A stretch of 64,000 nt of DNA from contig MVRA01000041.1 of assembly GCA_002067315.1 (NCBI GenBank), forward strand, positions 1 to 64,000, given 5' to 3'. This DNA comes from Methanocella sp. PtaU1.Bin125 (GTDB lineage Archaea; Halobacteriota; Methanocellia; Methanocellales; Methanocellaceae). The notes beneath the pieces were generated by a model. The model was not told the origin of the DNA, ran no database searches, and saw nothing but the letters and a program-made list of their open reading frames with translations. Shown piece after piece: positions 6,267 to 28,364 of the stretch (position 1 is its first letter; each line of letters opens with the position of its first letter). A program made the translations under genes and the position numbers.

Positions 6267-6572
6267 CTATCGCTCGCATCCTGCGGCCGGGTTGTGGTCG
6301 CGGGTGCTCACGAAATATTCGAGGTCGTCGTAGTAGTCGGGTATCAGCAGGATGCCGTCGACCTCGTTCAGGATTTTCAGGGTGATCCACTCCAGGTGCC
6401 TGTTGACCAGGCATTCCCGGACCGTGACATCGCTGCTATCGTCAATGTGCAGGTCTATTAGCTGCTTACGCAGCAGCCGGCGGACCGCGTTCTTTACCTC
6501 GTTGATCGATGCGGCCTGCTTGAACTCTTCGCTTTCCAGCACTATCCTGATCAGTTCCTCATCACTGAGCAT
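6267..6572 (-). CDS. small hypothetical protein
   Basis: I do not recognise this 101-residue protein. It is acidic, with a helical N-terminal half (LSDEELIRIVLESEEFKQAA) and an arginine-rich middle (KNAVRRLLRKQL), and has no signal peptide, membrane segment or cysteine cluster. A GGGG stretch lies about ten bases before the ATG. Codon use resembles that of neighbouring genes, which supports it as real. It could be a small regulatory or toxin-antitoxin-like protein, but no partner is visible. Confidence 0.5.
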   Translation of the reverse strand: MLSDEELIRIVLESEEFKQAASINEVKNAVRRLLRKQLIDLHIDDSSDVTVRECLVNRHLEWITLKILNEVDGILLIPDYYDDLEYFVSTRDHNPAAGCER

Positions 6573-6939
6573 CAGTCATACCCCTACCGATGAAAATCGG
6601 ACAGAGTCCTGAACGGACTACATATGTTTTCCGATATAACGTTTTACCCTGTCAAATGAGATGTACTCGCTACGGCAAAACATATTTTTCGGTCCCGGCC
6701 GGCTTTGTGAAAAATGACGTGCTTTGTGAAAAATGACGTCAGACAGCGCCTATCCGGGGATAAGCCCTCTGTCCGCTCTATTCAGGCAATGCTGACTCGC
6801 CTTTACGGGCAAAATGTGCCGGGGCCCTGTCAGTTCCTGTCAATAACCGATCTATTGTGACTGTTATTCACCACAAAAGTAGAAAATATATTTAATTATA
6901 TATTATTAACATTGACTTGCTTATTGAGGAGGGTAGTTA
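6573..6939. other. gene-less leader region of the exported-protein cluster
   Basis: No gene is seen. A perfect 19-base tandem duplication (unit GCTTTGTGAAAAATGACGT) occupies 6702-6739. The 3' third is AT-rich and holds the promoter of the first exported-protein gene. Confidence 0.6.
6885..6894 (+). promoter_or_regulatory. TATA-like box of the first exported-protein gene
   Basis: AATATATTTA starts 55 bases before the ATG at 6940. The identical decamer starts 54 bases before three other cluster genes (8791, 10191, 11012), and AATATATTAA occurs at 7538 and 8160. It is interpreted as the archaeal TATA element, giving leaders of about 25-30 nt. Confidence 0.65.
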
Positions 6940-7335
6940 ATGAGAAAGGTTATTGCATACGGAATTCTGTGTGTGCTGGCGCTCAGCTTTATTGTGCCGG
7001 CAAGTGCGAACCTGGTCGGGACTGCGTTCGGTTTCCCGACGATCCTGCAGACTGGCACGACGACTGCGTTCAACAGGGACACGGCTGCCGCTACGGACAC
7101 TGAGGCGTTCGCCCTGTCGTTCCCGACGACCGCCGATTCGGCATTCTGTCCGCTGCCCGGTCTCCCGGCCGGTGGCGCGTTCAACCTGGCGTTCCCGAGC
7201 ATTGCGCAGACGGTAGCCCAGACGCAGGTGCTCACGCACTGCGACTTTGCCACGACCACTGAAGAGGCCGCGTTCGCGTATCCGTTCGTCGGCGTCGGCG
7301 GCGTAGCCATCCCCGGCTTCGGCTTCGGGTTCTAA
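6940..7335 (+). CDS. small exported Phe/Pro/Gly-rich protein, copy 1
   Basis: The 131-residue product has a clear signal peptide (basic MRK, hydrophobic core, cleavage near PASA at residue 23). The mature part is 108 residues, rich in Phe, Pro, Thr, Ala and Gly, and ends in GFGFGF. Phe-Pro motifs recur: FGFPTI, LSFPTT, LAFPSI and FAYPFVGVGG. Two mature cysteines are present, and there is no membrane anchor or known sorting tail. GAGGAGG lies seven bases before the ATG within the leader GAGGAGGGTAGTTA, shared with copy 2 and others. I know no family for it. An extracellular or surface-associated structural role is inference. Confidence 0.8.
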   Translation: MRKVIAYGILCVLALSFIVPASANLVGTAFGFPTILQTGTTTAFNRDTAAATDTEAFALSFPTTADSAFCPLPGLPAGGAFNLAFPSIAQTVAQTQVLTHCDFATTTEEAAFAYPFVGVGGVAIPGFGFGF

Positions 7336-7365
7336 GCGGAATTACGTCAGTGAACGAGGAGTGAT

Positions 7366-7402
7366 GGCAGGAGATAACTATCTTCTGCCCTTAATTTTTA
7401 TC
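7366..7402 (+). terminator. terminator after exported-protein copy 1
   Basis: GGCAGGAGATA (7366-7376) pairs with TATCTTCTGCC (7379-7389) through eleven pairs including one G-T wobble. Pyrimidine-rich TTAATTTTTATC follows. It separates copies 1 and 2 transcriptionally. Confidence 0.6.
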
Positions 7403-7518
7403 ATTTTTTTGCCTGTGCCTTTCTGCAGTCATCGCTGTGGCACGCAGCTTACGGGTGACATGCAAATAACGGCTAAATGTAACCGTAAACTGAATTTATT
7501 CTCTTTTAATTGCCGTTA

Positions 7519-7547
7519 TTTCGTTATAATAACTGATAATATATTAA
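7519..7547 (+). promoter_or_regulatory. promoter of exported-protein copy 2
   Basis: AATATATTAA (7538-7547) starts 55 bases before the ATG at 7593. The upstream 14-mer TTTCGTTATAATAA (7519-7532) recurs exactly before the gene at 8845 (8772-8785), at the same 19-base offset from that gene's box. Confidence 0.6.
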
Positions 7548-7592
7548 TCGAGGCTTGCCAATAGAACTTTTAATAATTGAGGAGGGTAGTTA

Positions 7593-7988
7593 ATGAGGAA
7601 GTTTATAACATACGGAATTCTGTTTGTGCTGGCGCTCGCTCTCGTGTTGCCGGCTGGCGCGAACCTGGTCGGGACTGCGTTCGGTTTCCCGACGATCCTG
7701 CAGACTGGCACGACGACTGCGTTCAACAGGGACACGGCTGCCGCTACGGACACTGAGGCGTTCGCCCTGTCGTTCCCGACGACCGCCGATTCGGCATTCT
7801 GTCCGCTGCCCGGTCTCCCGGCCGGTGGCGCGTTCAACCTGGCGTTCCCCAGCATTGCGCAGACGGTAGCCCAGACGCAGGTGCTCACGCACTGCGACTT
7901 TGCCACGACCACTGAAGAGGCCGCGTTCGCGTATCCGTTCGTCGGCGTCGGCGGCGTAGCCATCCCCGGCTTCGGCTTCGGGTTCTAA
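7593..7988 (+). CDS. small exported Phe/Pro/Gly-rich protein, copy 2
   Basis: This 131-residue protein has the same 108-residue mature sequence as copy 1. The DNA of the mature part (7659-7989 against 7006-7336) differs at only one base, a synonymous change. The signal peptide (LALALVLPAGA against LALSFIVPASA) and the flanks have diverged, while the leader GAGGAGGGTAGTTA is the same. The pattern points to gene conversion or very recent duplication of the mature part. Function is unknown. Confidence 0.8.
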   Translation: MRKFITYGILFVLALALVLPAGANLVGTAFGFPTILQTGTTTAFNRDTAAATDTEAFALSFPTTADSAFCPLPGLPAGGAFNLAFPSIAQTVAQTQVLTHCDFATTTEEAAFAYPFVGVGGVAIPGFGFGF

Positions 7989-7995
7989 AGCGAGT

Positions 7996-8030
7996 AAAGG
8001 GGGCTGATCGCCTCCTTTCATTTCTTTTTC
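7996..8030 (+). terminator. terminator after exported-protein copy 2
   Basis: AAAGGGGGC (7996-8004) pairs with GCCTCCTTT (8010-8018) with one wobble and a five-base loop. CATTTCTTTTTC follows. Confidence 0.6.
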
Positions 8031-8159
8031 CCCTGTTGCCCTGTGATCATTTCCCGATTGCTCCTGCCAAACGACAGCAAATCCAGGACGTCTATGGGTT
8101 CGCGGGCCATAACGTATTTATTATTGATCAATAGCCAATTATTCGTTTTTATGCACGCT

Positions 8160-8169
8160 AATATATTAA
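8160..8169 (+). promoter_or_regulatory. TATA-like box of the third exported-protein gene
   Basis: AATATATTAA starts 59 bases before the ATG at 8219 and is identical to the box of copy 2. The first G of GAGGAGGGTAGTAA follows 41 bases after the box start. Confidence 0.55.
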
Positions 8170-8218
8170 TCTGTATGAGCGATACATATCAACAATCATT
8201 GAGGAGGGTAGTAACATC

Positions 8219-8590
8219 ATGGTGAGAAAATTACTTTCGATAGTGATGCTTTCGCTGGTCATCGGGATTCTCACGGTCCCGGCAGCCGCTTCGCTGGTCC
8301 CTATGTCCTGGGGATTCCCGCAGATGGTACAGGACCACACAATAACGGTGTTCGAGAAGGATTTTGCACTGGCAACGGACGACGAGGCAGCGGCGGTCTC
8401 GTTCCCGACGACGGCAAGCGATCTCTGCGGCACAGCGTTCGGCTCGGCGTTCCCGACCATCACGCAGACAGCAGTCCAGAGCCAGACGCTAAGCAGTGTC
8501 AAGTTCATGAACGAGAACCAGCACTTCGCGTTCGCATACCCGTTCCTGAGCATCGGCGGCTCCCCGCTGCCGGCGATGGGATTCCTTTAA
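8219..8590 (+). CDS. small exported protein, diverged paralogue of copies 1 and 2
   Basis: The 123-residue protein has a signal peptide (MVRKLL, hydrophobic core, VPAAA at about residue 24). Its mature sequence is diverged but has the same plan as copies 1 and 2: WGFPQM, VSFPTT, SAFPTI, then FAFAYPFLSIGG and a short hydrophobic end (MGFL). Conserved landmarks also include an acidic ATD(D/T)EA stretch and one cysteine. The spacer after GAGGAGG is longer here (11 bases) than in the other copies. The conserved landmarks show that this is a protein family under constraint rather than random low-complexity sequence. Confidence 0.78.
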   Translation: MVRKLLSIVMLSLVIGILTVPAAASLVPMSWGFPQMVQDHTITVFEKDFALATDDEAAAVSFPTTASDLCGTAFGSAFPTITQTAVQSQTLSSVKFMNENQHFAFAYPFLSIGGSPLPAMGFL

Positions 8591-8771
8591 GGGTCGCTGG
8601 CTGACGGCCCGGGGCGCACGGCACGGGGACAGAGTCCTCCCTTATTTTCCTTATTTTAACGGACTCCTGTTTTTTACCCGTCATCTGCAGTCTGTATCGA
8701 GTCGCTGCTGTACTTGACATTTCTGCATATTTCGTCACATTGCTGTTATAATAGATTCGAAACCGGTTCGA

Positions 8772-8803
8772 TTTCGTTATAATAAATAATAATATATTTA
8801 TTA
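8772..8803 (+). promoter_or_regulatory. promoter of the Gly/Phe-rich cysteine-containing gene
   Basis: TTTCGTTATAATAA (8772-8785) and AATATATTTA (8791-8800) repeat the promoter arrangement of copy 2 and the box of the first gene. The box starts 54 bases before the ATG at 8845. Confidence 0.6.
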
Positions 8804-8844
8804 TCGTTTCCTTTACTTAATCAATGTCAAGTAGGGGGGATTGT

Positions 8845-9450
8845 ATGAGTTCAATAAAGAAATTAGCCGTACTATCGATGCTGGCCGTCGTTCTCATTGC
8901 GTTCTGTATGCCGGCATCTGCAGTGATCGGCGCAGGTGTAGGTGCTAGCTCCGTTTCGACTGCGGGGATTTCCGCTGCGTCGTCTGTCTCTGCCACTGCG
9001 GCAGGGATCGGCCTGGGTGGAGTCGGCCTGGGTGGAGTCGGCGCGTTCGGTGGGTTCGGTTTCCCGTTCAACTGGGGATTTAGCCAGTTTGGCATCGGTG
9101 CGTTCCCGTTCAACTGGGGTCTGGGCGCAGGATTAGGGCCCTTCGGCCTCGGGTGGAACCAGTTCAGCCCGTGCTTCGGTTCCGGATCGTTCTTCAGCCC
9201 GTGCTTCCTCGGGAGCACGTGTCAGGCGTTGCCGTTTATAACGGGCAAACCTGGCTTCTGTGCCGGGCCTGGCTTCGGGATTACGCCGTGGGCTTTCGGC
9301 CTTGGTGGCTGTACGAGGAGTATGCCTCTGTTCTTTGGCGCGCACGGGTTCGGTTTCCCGTTCACGCTGGGTGCGTGGGGCGCTTCCCTGATCCCGCCAG
9401 TGCCCGTTCTGCCGGCGCTGCCCGCAGCAATACCGTCGACTGTCTGCTGA
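8845..9450 (+). CDS. exported Gly/Phe-rich protein with six cysteines
   Basis: The 201-residue product has a signal peptide ending near MPASA (residue 26). A Ser/Ala/Val-rich spacer follows, then glycine repeats (GLGGVGLGGVGAFGGFGFPF), two copies of FPFNWG and a cysteine-bearing half (SPCFGSG, SPCFLGSTC, GFCAG, GGCTR, terminal C; six in all). The six cysteines would permit disulfide cross-linking outside the cell (inference). I chose the ATG at 8845, preceded by GGGGGGA, over the in-frame ATG at 8824, which would displace the signal peptide. No known family; composition recalls structural or adhesive secreted proteins. Confidence 0.75.
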   Translation: MSSIKKLAVLSMLAVVLIAFCMPASAVIGAGVGASSVSTAGISAASSVSATAAGIGLGGVGLGGVGAFGGFGFPFNWGFSQFGIGAFPFNWGLGAGLGPFGLGWNQFSPCFGSGSFFSPCFLGSTCQALPFITGKPGFCAGPGFGITPWAFGLGGCTRSMPLFFGAHGFGFPFTLGAWGASLIPPVPVLPALPAAIPSTVC

Positions 9451-9680
9451 AATACGCAGGCAGCGTGTAACGTAGCCCGGAGAGGAACACCGGGAATCAG
9501 ACTCCCTGTGGCCTGTTCGGGCCCCCAAAATTTAACAGCATTTTTTTCTTAAGCGTAATATCCCGGGACGCATGTGGAATACATCGATAAATCGAGCTTA
9601 TTTCCTGTTAAAAAGGCCGTAACGTGCTTGTATTATCTTATCATCGTCATAACGGGGCGATTTCGTGAATTTATTATAAT

Positions 9681-9690
9681 AACTTATTTA
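9681..9690 (+). promoter_or_regulatory. TATA-like box of the Trp/Gly peptide gene
   Basis: AACTTATTTA starts 49 bases before the GTG at 9730 and is preceded by TTATAATAA, resembling the promoters of copy 2 and the 8845 gene. It is a looser match than the other boxes. Confidence 0.45.
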
Positions 9691-9729
9691 ATATTACTTG
9701 TGTACTTTCATTTTGCAGGGGGGAATGAT

Positions 9730-9921
9730 GTGAGCTTTAAGAAACTGGCCATATACGTTCTTCTCGTGTTGGCCGCGCTGGCCGTCACCCTGCCCGCAGT
9801 CGCCTGGTGGGGCGGCTGGGGCTGGGGCGGTCTCGGCTGGGGCGGTCTCGGCTGGGGCTGGCCCTCATGGGGCTGGGGCACCGGCCTCTGGTGGCCATCC
9901 TGGGGCGGCTGGTGGTGGTAA
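9730..9921 (+). CDS. exported Trp/Gly-rich peptide, 63 residues
   Basis: Translation starts at GTG, with GGGGGGAAT just upstream. The signal peptide (MSFKKLAIYVLLVLAALAV, cleavage near LPAVA, residue 25) resembles that of the preceding gene. The 38-residue mature peptide contains 15 Trp and 15 Gly, arranged as WGWGG, LGWGG and WPSWG(W/G) units, and ends in WWW. There are no charged residues and no cysteines. This composition matches no family I know. The peptide would be expected to insert into or coat membranes or to assemble through aromatic stacking; both ideas are inference. A hairpin (GGGAG...CTCCC, 9985-10012) followed by T-rich sequence lies downstream. Confidence 0.7.
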   Translation: MSFKKLAIYVLLVLAALAVTLPAVAWWGGWGWGGLGWGGLGWGWPSWGWGTGLWWPSWGGWWW

Positions 9922-10244
9922 ATACTAACCACATGCTATCGATTGCCTGACCTGAGCTACACGAGAAGAAGTGAAAAAATTGGGGAGGGAGCGCTGAGCC
10001 GCTTACTCCCGGTTTCTTTTTAGAACGCGGAAATGGCACGAACGTCACGAATGGCATAAGGCCTCACAGGAACATCATTTAGCAACTTTTTCCTCATTAG
10101 CGGCAATCACTCGGGGCCCGGTATAAATGGCTTCAGTCTACTCCGTGCCCTCTGTGGCCTCTGTGTCCTTAATTCGCTTATTGTTCTACAAATATATTTA
10201 ACAGATATAAATAATATTATACATACAACTTGAGGAGGGTAGTT
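9922..10244. other. gene-less interval with a CTCTGTGG-type repeat
   Basis: No gene is seen. A terminator-like hairpin lies at about 9985-10022. Bases 10143-10169 hold CCGTGCCCTCTGTGG followed by CCTCTGTGTCC, a short direct-repeat motif that reads like a dispersed intergenic repeat. The promoter box AATATATTTA (10191-10200) of the next gene closes the interval. Confidence 0.5.
10191..10200 (+). promoter_or_regulatory. TATA-like box of the 154-residue exported protein
   Basis: AATATATTTA starts 54 bases before the ATG at 10245, the same decamer and spacing as the genes at 8845 and 11066. Confidence 0.6.
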
Positions 10245-10709
10245 ATGGATTTGAGGAAAGCTCCGGTCCTGGTACTGGTGGTAGCCATAGCAGCGTCCTT
10301 TGTGACGCCTGCCGGAGCGTTCATAGGAACGGCGATGACGCTCGACAAGCACCTGGGCGACACGATCACTTTTAACATCGGCAAGCAGGTCCAGGCCGCA
10401 GGCGCTGCCTTCGGGCTCGAGCAGATGGACCTGGGGGTCACATGGGGGGTCGACTATGACCTGAGTACGATTGCTGGCTATCCATATGGCTACGGTGGTG
10501 TGGGTGCACTGACGGATGCCAACATCGGGTATAGCCTGGGCGTGAGCATGGACGAGGCGCACGCGGCCGCCTTTGACGGGTCGCCGTTCGGGGTGCCGCT
10601 GGCCACGGGTGACATGAGCCGGACGACCTTCAACAATTTCATCGCCAAGAACGATCACATCTCGAGCGCACAGGTAGCACTGCCGTTCGCCGGGTTCCCG
10701 GTATTCTGA
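10245..10709 (+). CDS. exported protein of the cluster, 154 residues
   Basis: The start is the ATG at 10245, placed by GAGGAGGGTAGTT; an in-frame TTG at 10230 lies before the ribosome site and is rejected. The signal peptide (MDLRKAPVLVLVVAIAASFV, cleavage near TPAGA) is followed by a mature part with alternating polar and hydrophobic segments, a Tyr/Gly patch (YPYGYGGVG) and the end LPFAGFPVF, which echoes the Phe-Pro ends of the other cluster members. No cysteine is present in the mature part. Likely a distant member of the same exported group; function unknown. Confidence 0.75.
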   Translation: MDLRKAPVLVLVVAIAASFVTPAGAFIGTAMTLDKHLGDTITFNIGKQVQAAGAAFGLEQMDLGVTWGVDYDLSTIAGYPYGYGGVGALTDANIGYSLGVSMDEAHAAAFDGSPFGVPLATGDMSRTTFNNFIAKNDHISSAQVALPFAGFPVF

Positions 10710-10728
10710 ACCCGGGAACGCTTTTTTA
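10694..10728 (+). terminator. terminator overlapping the stop codon of the 10245 gene
   Basis: GTTCCCGG (10694-10701) pairs with CCGGGAAC (10712-10719), and CTTTTTTATC follows at 10721-10730. The stop codon (10707-10709) lies in the loop. Confidence 0.65.
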
Positions 10729-11065
10729 TCCGGCCTGCGTGCGCGCCAGATTATCTGCATGAGCGAGTAAGCTGTCTTTTTAATGGCTCAGTCTCAGAAT
10801 GCGCAGGATATCCGGGACATTATATTGCCGGTTGAGCTTCCTCGAAGCAATCGCAATATAAATATCCATTATTTTACTGATACAAGCAGTAATACGGTAT
10901 ATTTATAACTAATTGCCCATTATTGCCTTTCATTTTTACAATCAGCAATGGATAATACCCGGAATGCGATAAAATACTCCAGTTCGCTTACAATTCGTAT
11001 TTTTAAATAATAATATATTTATTTTGTATGGTTAGAGATAAGAATGCAGTTTCGGAGGTGTAGTT
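10710..11065. other. gene-less interval before the Val-Pro repeat gene
   Basis: Apart from the terminator and the next promoter, the interval is AT-rich with no gene seen. TATA-like sequence occurs at 11007-11023. Confidence 0.5.
11012..11021 (+). promoter_or_regulatory. TATA-like box of the Val-Pro repeat gene
   Basis: AATATATTTA starts 54 bases before the ATG at 11066 and is embedded in AATAATAATATATTTATT. Confidence 0.6.
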
Positions 11066-11845
11066 ATGAATATGGCAAGTAAAGTAACAGTAGCCTTACT
11101 GGTTGTAGCGGCTACTCTATTGGTTACCGCGCCGGCTTTCGCGCTGGGCGGTTTTGGTATTGGGGCTGGATTGGGCATCGGAGCGCCACTGGCCGGCGCA
11201 TGTGGTCCAGCGCCTGTGGCAGTCGGTGCTCCGCAGGATTGCATCGCTCAGGTCTATTGTAACGTCCCGGTCACGACCACCGTGCCCGTCACGGTCCCGA
11301 CGACCGTTCCGCAGCAGGTACCCATCACCGTCCCGGTCGCCGACGTGACTACGGTTACTGTTCCCAGGGCAGTCATCGTGCCCCAGACGGTACCCGTACC
11401 CATCGTCAGGCCCGCGGTAACGTCGACGACGGTCCCGGTCACAGTGCCGGTTCAGTCTAGCGTGCCCGTGACGAGCATGGTCCCGCAAACCTACACGGTT
11501 CCAATGGGATGCCCGCCGTCCGCTGTACCCGCTGCAGCGCCTGCTGCTGGCGTGTGCGCGCCGGGCGTCGGCGCAGGTATCGCCGCTCCCTACGGTGGCT
11601 TCGGTGCAGGCATTGGTACCGGCTTCGGCCTCGGCACTGGCTTCGGAGCTACCGGCTTCGGTGCCGGCTACGGCCTTGGCGCCAGGGGCCTGGGTGTGAG
11701 CACCCTCGGCTCTCAGTTCGGTATCGGCCAGGCAGGCCTTGGCACGGCCGCCGGCCTCCAGATGGCCGGCAGCAGCCTCGGGGCAGCCGCTCCGTCGGCC
11801 ATGACGGGCATGCAGGCTGGAACGGGCGCAGCGAACGTCAAGTAA
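11066..11845 (+). CDS. exported protein with Val-Pro repeats and a Gly-rich domain
   Basis: The 259-residue product has a signal peptide (cleavage near APAFA, residue 26). A Gly/Pro segment with two cysteines follows. Then come roughly 80 residues of valine-proline repeats with Thr between them (VPVTVPTTVP, VPITVPV and variants, about residues 70-150), and finally a Gly/Ala/Phe domain (GFGAGIGTGFGLGTGFGA). Five mature cysteines are present. GGAGGTG lies upstream of the ATG. Val-Pro repeats favour extended or polyproline-like structure, so a spacer or fibre element is plausible (inference). The composition places it with its neighbours, but it is not an obvious homologue of copies 1-3. Confidence 0.75.
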   Translation: MNMASKVTVALLVVAATLLVTAPAFALGGFGIGAGLGIGAPLAGACGPAPVAVGAPQDCIAQVYCNVPVTTTVPVTVPTTVPQQVPITVPVADVTTVTVPRAVIVPQTVPVPIVRPAVTSTTVPVTVPVQSSVPVTSMVPQTYTVPMGCPPSAVPAAAPAAGVCAPGVGAGIAAPYGGFGAGIGTGFGLGTGFGATGFGAGYGLGARGLGVSTLGSQFGIGQAGLGTAAGLQMAGSSLGAAAPSAMTGMQAGTGAANVK

Positions 11846-12375
11846 GTTTGCATCAGACAATAGGTTGGGAAACAAGCAAGAGACTAACGACGGACTGGAG
11901 ACATCCAGTCCGTTTGCGGTCCTTTTCAAGCGTTTTTATAGTCATCTCTCGAATATTTCAAACAGAGGCGCTTTCCTGCAGGCCGGAACGTGTTGCAAGC
12001 CGGATCCCGGGGATGCGGGGGGAGCCGGGCCCTCGATAAGGGGCCCTCCTGTCCTGCACGCGTGCGCACGCGAGACCGTGATAGGACGGAGGGCGCTCGC
12101 ATAAAAGCCACCGGATGCCTCCCGGAGTATTTCGAACCGTTAAGGAATGACTATAAATGGCGGGGTATATCTGCGCCTCACTCACTGTACAGGGCGTCTA
12201 ATCCTCTGCGGCAGGTAGCTATCCGTTGACACAAAAACCGTTAAAATTGCCCTGATTTTATTTTTATGGCATAATGTGCCCTTTACGTCTTATTAAAAGC
12301 CTCTAATCGTTAATATAGCTGGTAATTTATTTAATCAGCGTGGTATACCAGATCATGATGTTGAATGGGTGTTGT
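11846..12375. other. 530-base gene-less interval with hairpins
   Basis: A perfect nine-pair hairpin (CGGACTGGA 11891-11899, TCCAGTCCG 11904-11912) followed by a T-rich tract is a good terminator for the preceding gene. GGGCCC repeats around 12026-12046 could form another stem. No gene or RNA family is recognised. The last 60 bases hold the next promoter (AATTTATTTA, 12324-12333). Confidence 0.5.
11891..11926 (+). terminator. terminator after the Val-Pro repeat gene
   Basis: A nine-pair perfect stem with loop GACA (11900-11903) is followed by TTTGCGGTCCTTTTC. Confidence 0.6.
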
Positions 12376-13017
12376 ATGCTCAGGTATACGTTCTGCCTCG
12401 CCTGTGCCCTTTTCCTGGCTGCGGCATGCGTCCTGCCGGCGGGAGCCAGCAGTGTGGCGAACGTAAACATGTACGGTTACCCCATGATCATGGGGATAGG
12501 CGGCACCGGAGCGGCCGGAGTGCCCGGGGAAGCGTACACGATGACCAACGCCGGCATCGACGGGCTGTCGGACGTAACGTCGAGGTATGGTATCGTAACC
12601 GCGTCCTCGGTCTCGTCGCCGTCCACCCCGAGTAGTTACGGATACTTCGGGCCCAACTGGAATGGCATCACGCTGGGCGTAAACTTCGGCTGGCCCACCG
12701 CCACCCACGACGCGGCCACGACCGCATATGCCAAAGACCTCGCCTACGAAGCCTGCCTGGACAACGCCGCGATCGCCTTCCCGGGCCTCGGTGTCGGATC
12801 GCTGGGCGTCAGCTTCCCCTCCCTGACCAGCAATAAGGCCGATATCAAGTATATGGAAACTGTCCGCTTCACCCTGACTACGGAAAGCGATACGATGCCC
12901 CTCGGCGGCTTCGGCTACCCGCTCGGCCTGGGGCTGGGATATCTGGGCGTCGGCGTCAACGGCGGCCTCGGGACGTCGGGCGGCATCGGCATGCCCTTCT
13001 ATTATTATAACAGCTGA
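12376..13017 (+). CDS. exported Gly/Ser/Tyr-rich protein, last of the cluster
   Basis: The start at the ATG 12376 gives 213 residues with a signal peptide (MLRYTFCLACALFLAAAC, cleavage near LPAGA). The in-frame ATG at 12340 would put charged and polar residues before it. The mature part contains Gly/Tyr/Pro patches (MYGYPMIMGIGG), FPGLGVGSLGVSFPSL, an ending rich in Gly (GFGYPLGLGLGYLGVG) and the terminal FYYYNS. The Phe-Pro motifs resemble those of copies 1-3. The ribosome site is weak. AATTTATTTA starts 52 bases before the ATG. The MscS gene follows 21 bases after the stop and may be co-transcribed. Confidence 0.72.
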   Translation: MLRYTFCLACALFLAAACVLPAGASSVANVNMYGYPMIMGIGGTGAAGVPGEAYTMTNAGIDGLSDVTSRYGIVTASSVSSPSTPSSYGYFGPNWNGITLGVNFGWPTATHDAATTAYAKDLAYEACLDNAAIAFPGLGVGSLGVSFPSLTSNKADIKYMETVRFTLTTESDTMPLGGFGYPLGLGLGYLGVGVNGGLGTSGGIGMPFYYYNS

Positions 13018-13038: not shown

Positions 13039-13854
13039 ATGTTTCAGTCGGCGCATCCCGCAGACGCGACCACCAGGGCCGTCCTCGATCTCGTCGATTT
13101 TTTATACGGCAACTGGAACCGGATCGTGCTCTCGATCGCGATCCTCATTCTCGCCTTCATCGTGATCAGGGTACTGAAATCGATGGTGACCCAGGTGGGT
13201 AAAGACTATCGTTTGCCCGATAGTACCGTACGCCTGATCATCACCGCGGTGACCTACGGCACCGTCATCCTGGCGTTCGTGAACGTGCTCGCCGTCTTCA
13301 ATATCCAGCTATACCCTCTGATCCTGAGCCTCGGCGTACTCAGTGCCGTCGTCGTCCTCGGCTCCCAGCTGCTCATTTCAAACGTGCTCGGGGGCGCCGT
13401 GGTCTACGTGGAAAGGCCGTTCGTCATCGGGGACATCATCAAGGTGGGCGAGAATATCGGCGTCGTGCAGGGCATCAACATCCGGTCGACCGCCCTGAAA
13501 GGGCTGAACGGCCTGGATATCACTATTCCAAACTCTACCTTCCTGACGACCTCGATCACGAACTATACGAAGACCCGGCACTACCTGGTCAAAGTGCCTT
13601 TCACGATGCCGATAAAGGTCGATCTGTCCGGCCTCGCCGAAGCGATCAAGGCCCGGGCCGCTTCCATACCCGGGTTTGCCCCCGACCGTGGCGGTGAGCT
13701 GTATAAAATGGGCATAAGCAAGGTGGATATTCAGTACGAGCTGCACTTCTGGATCTCAGACCCGCGCAAGGCGGATGAGGCGAAGTCCCGGGTCATCGAT
13801 ATTATCAGCCAGGACCTCGGGCACAAAGGGCACTATGGGCTCGGAGGGGAATAG
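13039..13854 (+). CDS. MscS-family small-conductance mechanosensitive channel
   Basis: The 271-residue protein has three membrane segments (about residues 28-48, 64-86 and 90-116), the last being the Gly/Ala-bearing pore helix. The MscS beta-domain signature RPFVIGDIIKVGENIGVVQG, NSTFLTTSITNYT and a soluble alpha/beta C-terminus follow. Length and order match the short MscS type. Such channels open under membrane tension and release solutes during hypo-osmotic shock. CGGAG lies upstream of the ATG. Its position directly behind an exported-protein gene may only reflect gene packing. Confidence 0.9.
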   Translation: MFQSAHPADATTRAVLDLVDFLYGNWNRIVLSIAILILAFIVIRVLKSMVTQVGKDYRLPDSTVRLIITAVTYGTVILAFVNVLAVFNIQLYPLILSLGVLSAVVVLGSQLLISNVLGGAVVYVERPFVIGDIIKVGENIGVVQGINIRSTALKGLNGLDITIPNSTFLTTSITNYTKTRHYLVKVPFTMPIKVDLSGLAEAIKARAASIPGFAPDRGGELYKMGISKVDIQYELHFWISDPRKADEAKSRVIDIISQDLGHKGHYGLGGE

Positions 13855-23490: not shown

Positions 23491-23794
23491 TGCCGGTCAT
23501 GCATGCGCGCGCGACTGCCGCATGGGCTGAAGCGTATTTCATGATTGGTTTTATGTAATGCGTGTTCCGGTATGGGCCCATTGTCTGCAGACTCATTGCG
23601 ATACATGAATGCCCTGGCGGTATTAATCGCTGTGCGCAAAGCTATGCCCGGGCTATACTGCTAATATAATCTCTATATGGGCGCCGTGTGATATGTTGCA
23701 GCTTTCCCATTTTTTATTTAATTCCGGGAATCAAAGAAAGATTTAAAATATATCAAATAAAAATAACTTTAACAAGTGGGTGAGGTGTGTACGG

Positions 23795-24604
23795 TTGGTC
23801 CGTAAAAGCTTATTTGATCTTGTTACATTATCGGGTGTACGAAGAGATCTCTTATTTTACCTGGATGAGGGCCCGAAAAGCCTGTCGGATATAAAAGAAT
23901 ATTTAAATACTACATCCCCGGAAGTCTCGCCGAGGTTAAAAGAACTTATTGAACGTAATCTTATCCTATTTGAGGGTAAAAAATATCATTTGACGCCTAT
24001 GGGTAAGACAATTATTACAAATTTCCGACCTTTTTTTGAAACAGTAAGTGTTTTTGAACAAGAAAGTGATTTCTGGAATGAACACGATATAACTTCTATT
24101 CCTAATGAACTGCTACTGCGAATTGGTGAAATTAGAAATTACATGTTAATTGAAGATGATATAAATGATATTAATCGTACTAATACTGAAGTAGCTAACC
24201 TTTTCTCTAACTCAAGTAATATTTTTGGAGTTAGTTGTGTATTCGAATCTAATTATCCTCAAATATGTTTAAATGCTGCAAGAACAAATGTGCCAATTTC
24301 TATTGTATTGTCTAAAAATATATTTAATTATGTGCTAGATGCTTATAAAGATGAGATAAAAGAATTTATAAAAAGTCCCAATGCAGAATTTTATGTTTTA
24401 GATGAAAATATAAAAATATCCCATGTAGTTACTGATAATTGTATGTTACTTACAATGTTCTATAAAAATAATAAATTTGATGCACATACGAATCTTGTGA
24501 GTTATGATAAGTCATCAATTAACTGGGGAAAAGACCTTTTTAATTATTACAAATTAAAAGCGACGAAAATAAATGAAATGATAACTCATTCAAAAAAATT
24601 TTAG
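23795..24604 (+). CDS. winged-helix regulator with FilR1-type (DUF1724) domain
   Basis: Read from TTG at 23795, the 269-residue protein has an N-terminal winged helix (residues 1-80: SLFDLVTLSGVRRDLLFYL, then SPEVSPRLKELIERNLI) and a C-terminal FilR1-type domain. This architecture is common among methanogen transcription regulators. It lacks a receiver domain. GGTGAGG lies nine bases before the TTG; a GTG at 23780 would add five residues. The coding sequence is strongly AT-rich, unlike the preceding genes. Its 3' end overlaps the convergent UbiA-family gene by 15 bases. A histidine kinase lies 1 kb away. Confidence 0.8.
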   Translation: MVRKSLFDLVTLSGVRRDLLFYLDEGPKSLSDIKEYLNTTSPEVSPRLKELIERNLILFEGKKYHLTPMGKTIITNFRPFFETVSVFEQESDFWNEHDITSIPNELLLRIGEIRNYMLIEDDINDINRTNTEVANLFSNSSNIFGVSCVFESNYPQICLNAARTNVPISIVLSKNIFNYVLDAYKDEIKEFIKSPNAEFYVLDENIKISHVVTDNCMLLTMFYKNNKFDAHTNLVSYDKSSINWGKDLFNYYKLKATKINEMITHSKKF

Positions 24605-25498
24605 GTACAGAAATTTGAAAATGACTAGAACTATAGGCCAAAATATACATTCACCATCAACCATTAAATAGGTATATTTATGTAGTTCTTGATTATCATT
24701 TGTATTTCCTTTAGTTAAATAATATAATGTATATACAAAAAATATGGATAAAGCTAAAGTATAAATAGGTAAGATATTGGTATATACGCCATATAATAAT
24801 ATACATAATGATAATATATTTAATATATGTAATAGAATTATCGTTTTCTTTACACCTAATAATATCGGAAAAGTACGCAAGTTATCACGTTTGTCTGATG
24901 AAATATCTTTTATATCAAAAAATATTACATTAATTAAGCCTTTTAAAAATAGGAAGGTAAAATAAAGAAGATAAAAAACCGAAAATTGTAGTGAATAGAA
25001 AAAACTAACACAAAATGTTCCTGCATAAGCCCATACCATTGCTGTATATATGCTTTTAAAGCCAGGAATTGTTCTTGTAAGTACTTTGAAAACAATAGTA
25101 TATAATAATCCTCCAACTAGGATGATTAAAATAAATAGGCTAAATCCGTGATTATTTAAAAATATTAATAATCCTATTAATAATAATATGTATAAACCCA
25201 TTAAATATGGAAATATCCGTTCCCTATTTTTCAAATATTTTACTTTTTCCGGATTGGTAATAATGTCTTTATCTAGCTCTTTTTGATAGTTAAATGAATA
25301 TACGATTAATGGTATAAGATATGTTACAATAAGTGCAAAAAAATCAATTTGAAGATCTAGCAGGATCATTAATGATAGAAACAATGCGGGATAACCTAAT
25401 GACAAGTAATGGGCGCCAAAGATAAATTCATTTTTTATCCATTTTAATATACTATTGATATTATTTATATCTGCCGTTTCATTTTTTATATATGCCAT
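24590..25498 (-). CDS. divergent UbiA-family prenyltransferase
   Basis: The 302-residue protein has eight or nine membrane segments. The second aspartate motif of UbiA enzymes is recognisable (FFDIKDISSDKRDNLRTFPI, near residue 200). The first motif, usually NDxxDxxxD, is degenerate (NYQKELDKDI, near residue 70). UbiA enzymes transfer prenyl chains to aromatic or glycerol-type acceptors, and in archaea one makes the second ether link of membrane lipids. The changed first motif leaves activity and substrate uncertain. Codon use is AT-rich as in both neighbours. Confidence 0.7.
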   Translation of the reverse strand: MAYIKNETADINNINSILKWIKNEFIFGAHYLSLGYPALFLSLMILLDLQIDFFALIVTYLIPLIVYSFNYQKELDKDIITNPEKVKYLKNRERIFPYLMGLYILLLIGLLIFLNNHGFSLFILIILVGGLLYTIVFKVLTRTIPGFKSIYTAMVWAYAGTFCVSFFYSLQFSVFYLLYFTFLFLKGLINVIFFDIKDISSDKRDNLRTFPILLGVKKTIILLHILNILSLCILLYGVYTNILPIYTLALSIFFVYTLYYLTKGNTNDNQELHKYTYLMVDGECIFWPIVLVIFKFLYLKFF

Positions 25499-25600
25499 GA
25501 AATTACAATAAGTAATAGTATAACTACATTATATGCTTGTCTGTCTCTTAGATTATTGAATTTTCTATTTCGTAAAAAGTATTATATTTTATTAAAATGA

Positions 25601-27532
25601 TTATTTTGGAAATAATAATTCAAAGTTAGTGCCGTTTTCTATTTTTATATTTAACTTCCCATTAATTTGCTCAGCCAAGGCATTCACTAAATTAAGTCCA
25701 AGAGTTCTTGTATTTGCCAAATCAAGTCCTGCTGGGAATCCAATACCATTATCTTTGATATTTAATAAATAATAATTGTCTTGTTGTTGATTTATATTGA
25801 TATTAATAACGCCTTTTCTGTTATCCGGGAACGCATGTTTTAAAGCATTGGATAATAATTCATTGATGATTAATCCTAATGGTATTGCAGTATCAATATT
25901 CAATGAAATGTTATCGATATTTTTTTCAATTATAATACGCTCTCTATCAATATTATATGATGTTGAAAGGTTTGAAATTAATGTCTCAATATATTCTTTA
26001 AAGTTGACATTAGCCATATTATTAGATTGGTAGAGTTTTTCATGGATAAGTGCCATTGATTTAATCCTATTTTGGCTATCCTTTAATATTTCATTTAATT
26101 TTTCGTTTTTTACATATGCAGATTGAAGGCCAAGCATACTAGAAATGATCTGCATATTATTTTTCACTCTATGATGGATCTCTTTTAATAGGACTTCTTT
26201 TTCTTTTAATGACGTTGATATCTTTTCTTCAGCTTCTGTATGCTCCTGGATTTCTTTTTGAAGTGCTTGATTTAATATTGAGAGTTCTGCTGTCCTTTCT
26301 TTTACTCGTGCTTCCAATTTATCATTTGCATTTTTCAATTGATCTTCTGCGTTCTTTCTTAATGTAATGTCTTCACCTAAAAATATATATTTAGATATTT
26401 TTCCATCTGATGAAAATGTGGGGAATAATTTTATTGTATAATACTTTAATGTATTCCCTTTTATTAATTCAAAATTTTCTAGTTGTACAGCTTCTCCGTT
26501 TTTAACAATATCAAATGATTTATCCGGGTAATTATAATTGAAAGAAAATATATTATTGGTTTTTATAACTTCTGAATCTAATATTCCAAATGTTTTCAAG
26601 AATTGTTCATTAGCTTTTATAATTTGCCCATCGACATCACACATGCACATTGCATCTGGGGATTGCATAATAAGATCATCAATAACAAGAGATGTATCCT
26701 GTAATTTTTTATTTACTTCCTCAATCGATGTTATTTTAATATTACTAAGTGCATATATTAGAAGAGTAAATGAAATAAATATCAACATAAAGTCGTAAAA
26801 ATACTGTGAGTATTCTAATGTATCGTATAATTCTAAATGACCAAGTAATTTTAATGAATCCCCGATAAAACTTAAAAGGGACATTCCAAATATTATAGAA
26901 AATAGATATCTCAATTTTGTTGGAATATTAATTAATATTAAAATTGTAACGAAACTTAAAATAATTGTGTCGCATAGTGTAGAAATCGTGTATACCATAA
27001 CATAGTCTATACTACTATCGGTACTACTATCGGTATAGCTTGGATAATTGGTTATTACATAATATATTAAAAAAATAGCAAATGCGATATTTATTAAAAA
27101 TATAAATTGTTGAATTATAATGTTTAACTTATTGCGTTGTTCAATATATACTAATAATAAAGCAACAATTAATGGAGCATAACATGCTACCATTATTAAC
27201 ATTCCTAATGGGACTAAAAAGCCCCAATCAATAGACGAAGGTAAAACATACCAAATAATTCCAGATATAAAGAATCCTGTTAAAGTAATTGATAAGCCTA
27301 AAAATATTGTTTTTGCAATTTTATCCGTATTAGATTTATATAATACGATGCACATTGGGACACAAAATAATAACAATAATGCAGCGGAGATGACTGTAGT
27401 TATTGGTAACTCACTATTTACTGATGAAAATAAAAATAACATTGCCGTCATTACTAATAATGTGATTTGTATTGAAATTAGGAAAATAAGTAATAAATTG
27501 AATCCTTTTACCCTTATTATCCCAAAATCCAT
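25601..27532 (-). CDS. membrane sensor histidine kinase (PAS, HisKA_2)
   Basis: The 643-residue protein has about eight N-terminal membrane segments (residues 10-270) resembling an integral membrane sensor, a PAS domain (about 285-400), a coiled coil (400-450), a HisKA_2 dimerisation helix with the phospho-acceptor in EIHHRVKNNMQ (first His at 453), and an ATPase domain with N box INELLSNALKHAFP (from 556) and G boxes DNGIGFP and TLGLNLV. It has no attached receiver, and no receiver-domain gene is in the window. It shares the AT-rich composition of the island (only 10 G/C in 26881-26940). Confidence 0.88.
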   Translation of the reverse strand: MDFGIIRVKGFNLLLIFLISIQITLLVMTAMLFLFSSVNSELPITTVISAALLLLFCVPMCIVLYKSNTDKIAKTIFLGLSITLTGFFISGIIWYVLPSSIDWGFLVPLGMLIMVACYAPLIVALLLVYIEQRNKLNIIIQQFIFLINIAFAIFLIYYVITNYPSYTDSSTDSSIDYVMVYTISTLCDTIILSFVTILILINIPTKLRYLFSIIFGMSLLSFIGDSLKLLGHLELYDTLEYSQYFYDFMLIFISFTLLIYALSNIKITSIEEVNKKLQDTSLVIDDLIMQSPDAMCMCDVDGQIIKANEQFLKTFGILDSEVIKTNNIFSFNYNYPDKSFDIVKNGEAVQLENFELIKGNTLKYYTIKLFPTFSSDGKISKYIFLGEDITLRKNAEDQLKNANDKLEARVKERTAELSILNQALQKEIQEHTEAEEKISTSLKEKEVLLKEIHHRVKNNMQIISSMLGLQSAYVKNEKLNEILKDSQNRIKSMALIHEKLYQSNNMANVNFKEYIETLISNLSTSYNIDRERIIIEKNIDNISLNIDTAIPLGLIINELLSNALKHAFPDNRKGVINININQQQDNYYLLNIKDNGIGFPAGLDLANTRTLGLNLVNALAEQINGKLNIKIENGTNFELLFPK

Positions 27533-27635
27533 AGATTATCTTCCTTTTGATTAATAAACAACTACTCTTTGGTCATTTAGTTTAAAATAACTTTTGATAT
27601 TTTCTTATAAATTCAAAATAATAAGTAACGGGGGT

Positions 27636-28364
27636 TTACATAAGCTTGTTTTTCAACGTTCCGATCTTCTCAATTTCAATCTCGATGATATCGCCCTTGT
27701 TCATGGGCCCCACTCCCGATGGCGTCCCCGTAGCAATGACATCACCCTGCTCCAGTGTCATCACACCTGAAATAAACTCCACGAGCTGAAACGGATCAAA
27801 AATCATATTATCCGTGTTCGACTCCTGCATGACCCTGCCGTTCAGCTTTGACTTGATGGCGAGCTTCCGCGGGTCGATATCTGTAACCACGAAGGGCCCG
27901 ACCGGCGAGAAGGTGTCGAAGCTCTTGGCGCGGGTCCACTGGCCGTCTTTCTTCTGCAAATCGCGGGCCGTGACGTCGTTGAAGCAGGTGTAGCCCAGGA
28001 TGTAGTCTTTAGCGTGGCCCGGTTTGACGTGGCGGGCGCGCTTGCCGATGACGACGGCGAGCTCGGCCTCGTAGTCGACCTGGTGGCTTTGCGGGGGGTA
28101 GATGATGCTGGCGCCGTGGCCGATAACGCTGGAGGCGGGCTTGAGGAAGATGACGGGCTCGTCGGGAAGCTTTTCGTTCATCTCGGCGGCATGGTCTTTG
28201 TAGTTGAGGCCGACGCAGACGACCTTGGTCGGCTTGCAGGGCGGGAGGATCGTTATTTTATCCATCTCGTACTCCCGGCCGCCGATGTGGGAGTGTACCT
28301 TGCCCGCGATTATTTCGCCGGTGAAGTCGACGTGGTTGTGCCTGAATCTGCCGATGACTGTCAT
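27636..28364 (-). CDS. fumarylacetoacetate hydrolase family protein
   Basis: The 242-residue protein has the FAH-family core: CVGLNYKDHAAEMNEKLP, FLKPASSVIG, DYEAELAVVIGK with acidic metal ligands, and FNDVTARDLQKKDGQWTRAK. Members are metal-dependent hydrolases, decarboxylases or tautomerases of 2-oxo acids, including oxaloacetate. The ATG overlaps the pyrK stop (ATGA) and AAGGAGG lies in the end of pyrK, so it is the third gene of a pyrD-pyrK-FAH operon. Substrate is not readable; a clean-up role for oxaloacetate or a pyrimidine-linked acid is speculation. Confidence 0.85.
   Translation of the reverse strand: MTVIGRFRHNHVDFTGEIIAGKVHSHIGGREYEMDKITILPPCKPTKVVCVGLNYKDHAAEMNEKLPDEPVIFLKPASSVIGHGASIIYPPQSHQVDYEAELAVVIGKRARHVKPGHAKDYILGYTCFNDVTARDLQKKDGQWTRAKSFDTFSPVGPFVVTDIDPRKLAIKSKLNGRVMQESNTDNMIFDPFQLVEFISGVMTLEQGDVIATGTPSGVGPMNKGDIIEIEIEKIGTLKNKLM

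Follow-up and report, generated by a model that had tools for sequence, protein, structure and literature searches.

A lineage-restricted cluster of small exported proteins in Methanocellaceae with a fixed-length proline-bounded module and a proposed role in an extracellular β fibre or coat

Self-assembly of secreted proteins at the cell surface is already known as a general idea, and typical archaeal S-layer glycoproteins carry N-glycosylation sequons. Among the described systems closest to the present locus, thread (Saci_0406)-type filaments are made of small Sec-exported subunits with neither a class III signal nor a known dedicated machine (PMC9715654); thread subunits have ~206 aa, are heavily N-glycosylated, and join through a β-barrel head and donor-strand linkage. 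Epiplastins, protist membrane-skeleton proteins with VPV repeats that include the articulins, have as their defining feature a medial domain with many acid-base dyads and little Ala or Gly (PMC6212826). Long β hairpins act as the assembling element in aerolysin, lysenin, protective antigen and the phage P68 tail. Methanocellales, which count as relatively oxygen-tolerant among methanogens, are important producers of methane in rice soils (PMC12904285); their cell covering appears to be undescribed in the literature we searched. Conserved orphan exported proteins, such as those reported here, are candidate genes for the cell-surface make-up of Methanocellaceae.

The window (the whole 64,000-nucleotide stretch that was analysed) belongs to a 3.24 Mb draft genome, hereafter G000. 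It holds eight consecutive + strand ORFs, with starts from 6940 to 12376 and products of 131, 131, 123, 201, 63, 154, 259 and 213 aa, all present at the starts given by the first-pass annotation. They fall into seven families (A to G) and are followed by a channel gene:

6940-7335, + strand: family A copy 1, 131 aa; signal peptide at about residues 1-23; Pro-x28-Pro modules at residues 33-62 and 86-115
7593-7988, + strand: family A copy 2, 131 aa; mature DNA 99.7% and signal-peptide part 75.8% identical to copy 1
8219-8590, + strand: family B, 123 aa; diverged A-superfamily protein, with two Pro-x28-Pro modules as in A
8845-9450, + strand: family C, 201 aa; Phe/Gly/Pro-rich and nearly without charge; internal duplication in three orthologues
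9730-9921, + strand: family D, 63 aa; mature part 41% Gly and 38% Trp
10245-10709, + strand: family E, 154 aa; single, C-terminal Pro-x28-Pro module
11066-11845, + strand: family F, 259 aa; Val-Pro core at about residues 60-146, then a Gly-rich tail
12376-13017, + strand: family G, 213 aa; residues 101-183 homologous to A
13039-13854, + strand: MscS-type mechanosensitive channel gene, directly 3' of G, starting 22 bp after G ends

For all eight proteins, a simple rule of our own (not SignalP) predicted an export signal with basic n-region, hydrophobic core and A-x-A-like end, in line with what had been proposed; the signals are of the Sec rather than the class III type, as in donor-strand filaments. 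When a filter combining export signal, ribosome site and charge below 12% was run over the 64 kb, only these eight ORFs and three likely spurious ones passed. The compositions claimed in the first-pass annotation were recovered as well: the 9730 product is Trp/Gly-rich, the 11066 product is Val-Pro rich, and mature family A (~108 aa) contains 13% Phe, 16% Thr and 18% Ala. Its description of the proteins as poor in charges held for most, and more weakly for the 10245 (11.7% charged residues) and 8219 (9.9%) products. The mature parts showed no clear transmembrane-like stretch (highest 19-residue mean hydropathy, 1.47), and there were 0 N-glycosylation sequons in all eight window proteins. Genes for processing enzymes were not found adjacent, and Pfam, NCBIfam and PDB sequence searches with the cluster proteins returned nothing significant, leaving intact the claims that accessory enzymes and a described homologue are lacking. 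Codon adaptation of the cluster genes was 0.40-0.56 vs 0.66-0.73 for four reference ribosomal proteins; because the values lie below the ribosomal reference, very high expression of the cluster is unsupported. An Rfam search yielded tRNA only.

We compared four Methanocellaceae genomes, G000 and three others (G001, G002 and G003). The block A (2-4 copies)-B-C-D-E-F-G recurred in the same order in G001, G002 and G003, with extra A-like genes in G001 (B of G003, at C2:87435-87797, came from a profile search rather than the export filter). In each of the three, the S6e gene lies on its upstream side; in G002 and G003, the L18e and L13 genes follow it (the G001 stretch that was compared ends shortly beyond gene G). 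For G000 vs G002, dN/dS was 0.13-0.16 for A, 0.25 for B, 0.17 for C, 0.31 for D, 0.10 for E and 0.23 for F (for G, synonymous sites were saturated and no value could be computed), and values of 0.10-0.31 indicate purifying selection on the proteins. Because the frames are kept in G001, G002 and G003 and dN/dS stays far under 1, chance ORFs are excluded; judged from these comparisons, the window ORFs are real genes. Intact frames, rather than frameshifted remains, were found in the relatives, and the fixed place between ribosomal-protein genes, together with those frames and dN/dS of at most 0.31, rules out a mobile element or pseudogene origin. The MscS gene adjoins G in G002 and G003 too; the two genes are possibly co-transcribed, and their adjacency hints at a link to envelope mechanics, although we do not claim MscS for the proposed structure. 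A small uncharacterised protein of ~100 aa encoded 5' of the cluster (6267-6572, - strand) is kept in G001 and G002 and was not found in the G003 stretch.

Profile searches revealed a narrow lineage range. The A/B profile matched only the four Methanocellaceae among 394 genomes of the phylum, and the C profile only these four among 247 genomes; E gave the four plus one weak match in G246 (E 3e-4), and F matched the four strongly, its weak matches elsewhere lying mostly on the Gly-rich tail. With D compared within the clusters and B and G covered through the A/B profile, restriction to Methanocellaceae applies to A, C, E and F, four of the seven families. Two GTDB contig scans gave no matches, in collections where near relatives may be absent and even the exact-match genomes did not surface; a viral-contig scan and a phage search gave none either. 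We regard the protein families and the module described below as new, in the sense of families and architecture and not of a demonstrated function.

Detailed sequence comparison revealed two prolines exactly 29 residues apart (Pro-x28-Pro, spanning 30 residues), at least once per protein, in all 20 A, all 6 B and all 5 E sequences, each module proline being preceded by an aromatic or aliphatic residue. The module consensus is P-x-I-x-Q-[ST]-x16-E-x5-[FY]-P. A and B have two modules, joined by a linker of variable length, and some members have another residue in place of the first module's end proline. G aligned over the 30 residues without gaps in 4/4 orthologues, with proline at both ends in two, and its profile homology to A was significant (E 1.5e-9). 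Similarity between the A and E profiles (probability 32%, E 5e-4, 41 columns) coincides with the exact 29-residue proline spacing and is only suggestive of homology. The eight are not all unrelated: the 6940 and 7593 products are nearly the same protein, that of 8219 is homologous to them, that of 12376 distantly so over part of its length, and that of 10245 possibly so. The first-pass annotation had missed this superfamily, as well as the conservation of the set in all four genomes and the paralogues and further motif-bearing genes elsewhere. C was rejected as an A homologue, the A-C profile similarity being confined to the signal peptide. A further exported family, H (~300 aa; loci L037:8701-10783, L042:7825-8784, L069, L072 and L075), has an A-like region, and its C-terminal part is conserved, with W-[DR]-[LI] at the end; it was found only in the four Methanocellaceae genomes within a sample of 295, and 5/6 H proteins counted carry 4-10 sequons vs none in the eight window proteins.

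The disparity between mature and signal-peptide identity in the A pair of the window was also seen in G002, whose tandem pair is 100% identical in mature DNA vs 89.4% in the signal-peptide part. In G003, one pair showed 98.0% and 68.2%, respectively, and another the reverse (88.4% and 100%), whereas the tandem copies compared in G001 are ~87% identical without the pattern. Between G000 and G002, mature A is only ~75% identical. The simplest account of the uniform mature copies would be gene conversion, as would befit a subunit whose copies are held alike.

We then consider regulation. Most cluster genes in the four genomes are preceded, ~45-80 nt before the start codon, by an element, TTCG-N13-WAATATATTWA, and the ribosome site GAGGAGGGTA is common to most A, B and E genes. 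Elements in the window are as follows:

6866-6894, + strand: element variant, ATTCA-N13-AAATATATTTA, 5' of 6940 (by eye)
7519-7547, + strand: shared element, 5' of 7593
8141-8169, + strand: shared element, 5' of 8219
8772-8800, + strand: shared element, 5' of 8845
9661-9692 (end approximate), + strand: degenerate element, 5' of 9730 (by eye)
10172-10200, + strand: shared element, 5' of 10245
10993-11021, + strand: shared element, 5' of 11066
12305-12333, + strand: element variant, AATCG-N13-TAATTTATTTA, 5' of 12376 (by eye)

Genome-wide, with two mismatches allowed, 21/30 motif matches fell inside the four clusters, all on the coding strand, and a reversed control pattern gave 10 in total; the motif was derived from these clusters and orthologous promoters are non-independent, so a binomial test overstates the enrichment. 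Matches outside the clusters at G001:2225736, G003:C1:85821 and G003:C10:31264 precede exported aromatic proteins, one of them an F paralogue. Shared control of the cluster genes through this putative promoter element is supported, which bears out the common regulation previously proposed; the arrangement appears to be not one operon but a separate promoter for most genes. A sigma-70 promoter scan was set aside as inapplicable to archaea.

G001 has a further locus at which A, B and E are again found together. The shared element is missing from stand-alone A, B and E paralogues, which have another one in common, TTAA...AAACCTTTAA, ~110 nt upstream (by eye). Winged-helix (ArsR-like) regulator genes, 55% identical to each other, adjoin stand-alone paralogues in G000:C52 and G001, and their product is a candidate for acting on this second promoter type:

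L036:8158-8772 (- strand) and L039:5581-6243 (+ strand): winged-helix regulator genes from two genera, beside stand-alone paralogues (B or E/B/A)

Individual promoter elements for most cluster genes, together with the uneven expansion of A-like genes (from 7 matches in G000 up to 23 in G001), would be expected of independent secreted proteins, i.e., signals, antimicrobials or stress factors that duplication and common regulation have brought together and that build nothing jointly. We consider this unlikely: different families keep strict synteny in four genomes, mature A is homogenised, the members share a low-charge aromatic make-up, and a protein with 38% Trp would be an improbable soluble factor.

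Structure prediction was performed for A and F. AlphaFold on A copy 2 (7593; 25 alignment rows) gave two 26-residue β-strands, at residues 34-59 and 88-113, coincident with both modules; pLDDT in the strand block was mostly 75-89 (mean pLDDT 72, pTM 0.28), and the loop and C-terminus were poor. For F, two 39-residue strands were predicted at low confidence (pLDDT ~53-74), followed by a disordered tail. Alternation of amphipathic faces along the module strands was not significant. Foldseek with the A model returned no significant match (best E-value 0.03); most of the nearest matches were long hairpins from oligomeric pores and from parts of phage tails. These models make it possible that A and F are long-strand proteins rather than relatives of the matched structures. 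Since ring-forming barrels and parts of phage tails supply the best-matching long hairpins, the A hairpins might instead close into oligomeric β-barrel tubes or envelope-spanning pores and not form open fibres. This strikes us as very unlikely, in that an E-value of 0.03 is not significant and any long hairpin would presumably match; the A strands showed no hydrophobic membrane-facing pattern, and A has none of the further domains of pore proteins. A resembles aerolysin, lysenin, protective antigen and the phage P68 tail in its modelled hairpin, but has neither a significant structural or sequence match to them nor their other domains.

We lean, with modest confidence, towards the reading that these Methanocellaceae-specific, co-regulated, Sec-exported proteins build a multi-component extracellular β fibre or coat by self-assembly, where we infer both the assembly and the location. 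Following Sec export and signal-peptide cleavage, A hairpins would pack side by side into a β polymer, with A as the main repeating subunit and its two 30-residue Pro-bounded modules forming one long β hairpin. B, G and perhaps E, as variant or terminal subunits on the A-type module, might cap, branch or vary the polymer; F would supply a second kind of long, extended Val-Pro β element, and the aromatic, Gly-rich and nearly uncharged C and D could act as cohesive filler or adhesive. Spontaneous assembly fits because processing enzymes, anchors and sequons are absent. Conserved order, purifying selection, export signals without transmembrane anchors, the shared element, fixed proline spacing, modelled strands, uniform A and the joint recurrence of A, B and E in G001 argue for a joint structure; the pTM of 0.28, the low-confidence F model, the lack of a significant structural match or significantly amphipathic faces, modest codon usage and the 87% identity of the G001 A copies argue against it. 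The fixed-length module, the hairpin model and the uniform A copies lend indirect support to the secreted or surface layer, fibre or adhesive that the first-pass annotation had suggested. That such a surface fibre or coat follows an undescribed principle, in which an invariant 30-residue Pro-bounded β module is duplicated into a long hairpin and joined by Val-Pro, Phe-Gly and Trp-Gly partners in one regulon, is put forward tentatively and may well not hold. If the hairpin model is true, the fixed-length module would be a new candidate self-assembling protein building block.

The cluster could alternatively provide the main regular wall layer of Methanocellaceae, an unrecognised S-layer substitute rather than a fibre or loose matrix. 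PF07752, the S-layer domain of the neighbouring Methanosarcina and the one S-layer family covered here, was found in 0/4 genomes (the control, Methanosarcina acetivorans, matched), the cluster is present in 4/4, and A is multi-copy and homogenised. Yet the eight window proteins have 0 sequons, unlike typical archaeal S-layer glycoproteins, the subunits are small, and codon usage is unlike that of a dominant protein, and we judge a wall layer improbable. Likeness to the Methanosarcina-type S-layer lies in an exported envelope role, which for the cluster proteins is a proposal.

The preferred fibre or coat would share with threads, archaeal bundling pili and TasA the use of small Sec-exported subunits. 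Mature A, at ~108 aa with 0 sequons, is modelled as a bare two-strand hairpin, in contrast to the larger glycosylated thread subunit; a β-barrel or β-sandwich head with a donor groove was not seen in the A model (pTM 0.28), and the Foldseek matches listed included no donor-strand filament subunits of the thread, bundling pili and TasA class. A class III signal with assembly helix, as in type-IV pilins and archaellins, was not observed: the hydrophobic stretch precedes A-x-A and the mature proteins start with polar or aromatic residues (by eye). F resembles epiplastins and articulins in its Val-Pro rich core with predicted β structure, and its 7, 4, 5 and 7 VPV motifs in the four genomes (whole chain) exceed the >3 that defines the articulin subclass; it differs in being exported, in having 0-1 acid-base dyads and a mature part with 18.5% Gly and 15.5% Ala, and in lacking a Pfam match. 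Membership in the thread-type filaments, type-IV pili, Methanosarcina-type S-layers or epiplastins is unsupported by the features checked.

Paralogues of F were located elsewhere (L143:1210-2049, L141:2077-2667 and L142:1334-1990), and the one at L143 shows tandem expansion of units such as VTVPKQVIVPEQ, giving an articulin-like look without a Pfam match. In G001, the protein encoded at L068:2956-4296 (- strand) joins two A-like segments to a long YVTN-type β-propeller repeat array, as judged from its sequence, which suggests that A modules can be combined with surface domains of other kinds. Elsewhere in the window, an AT-rich island at ~23500-27700 (core GC ~25-27% vs ~60% around), which was probably acquired from elsewhere, encodes a FilR1-type regulator, a UbiA prenyltransferase-family protein and a PAS histidine kinase.
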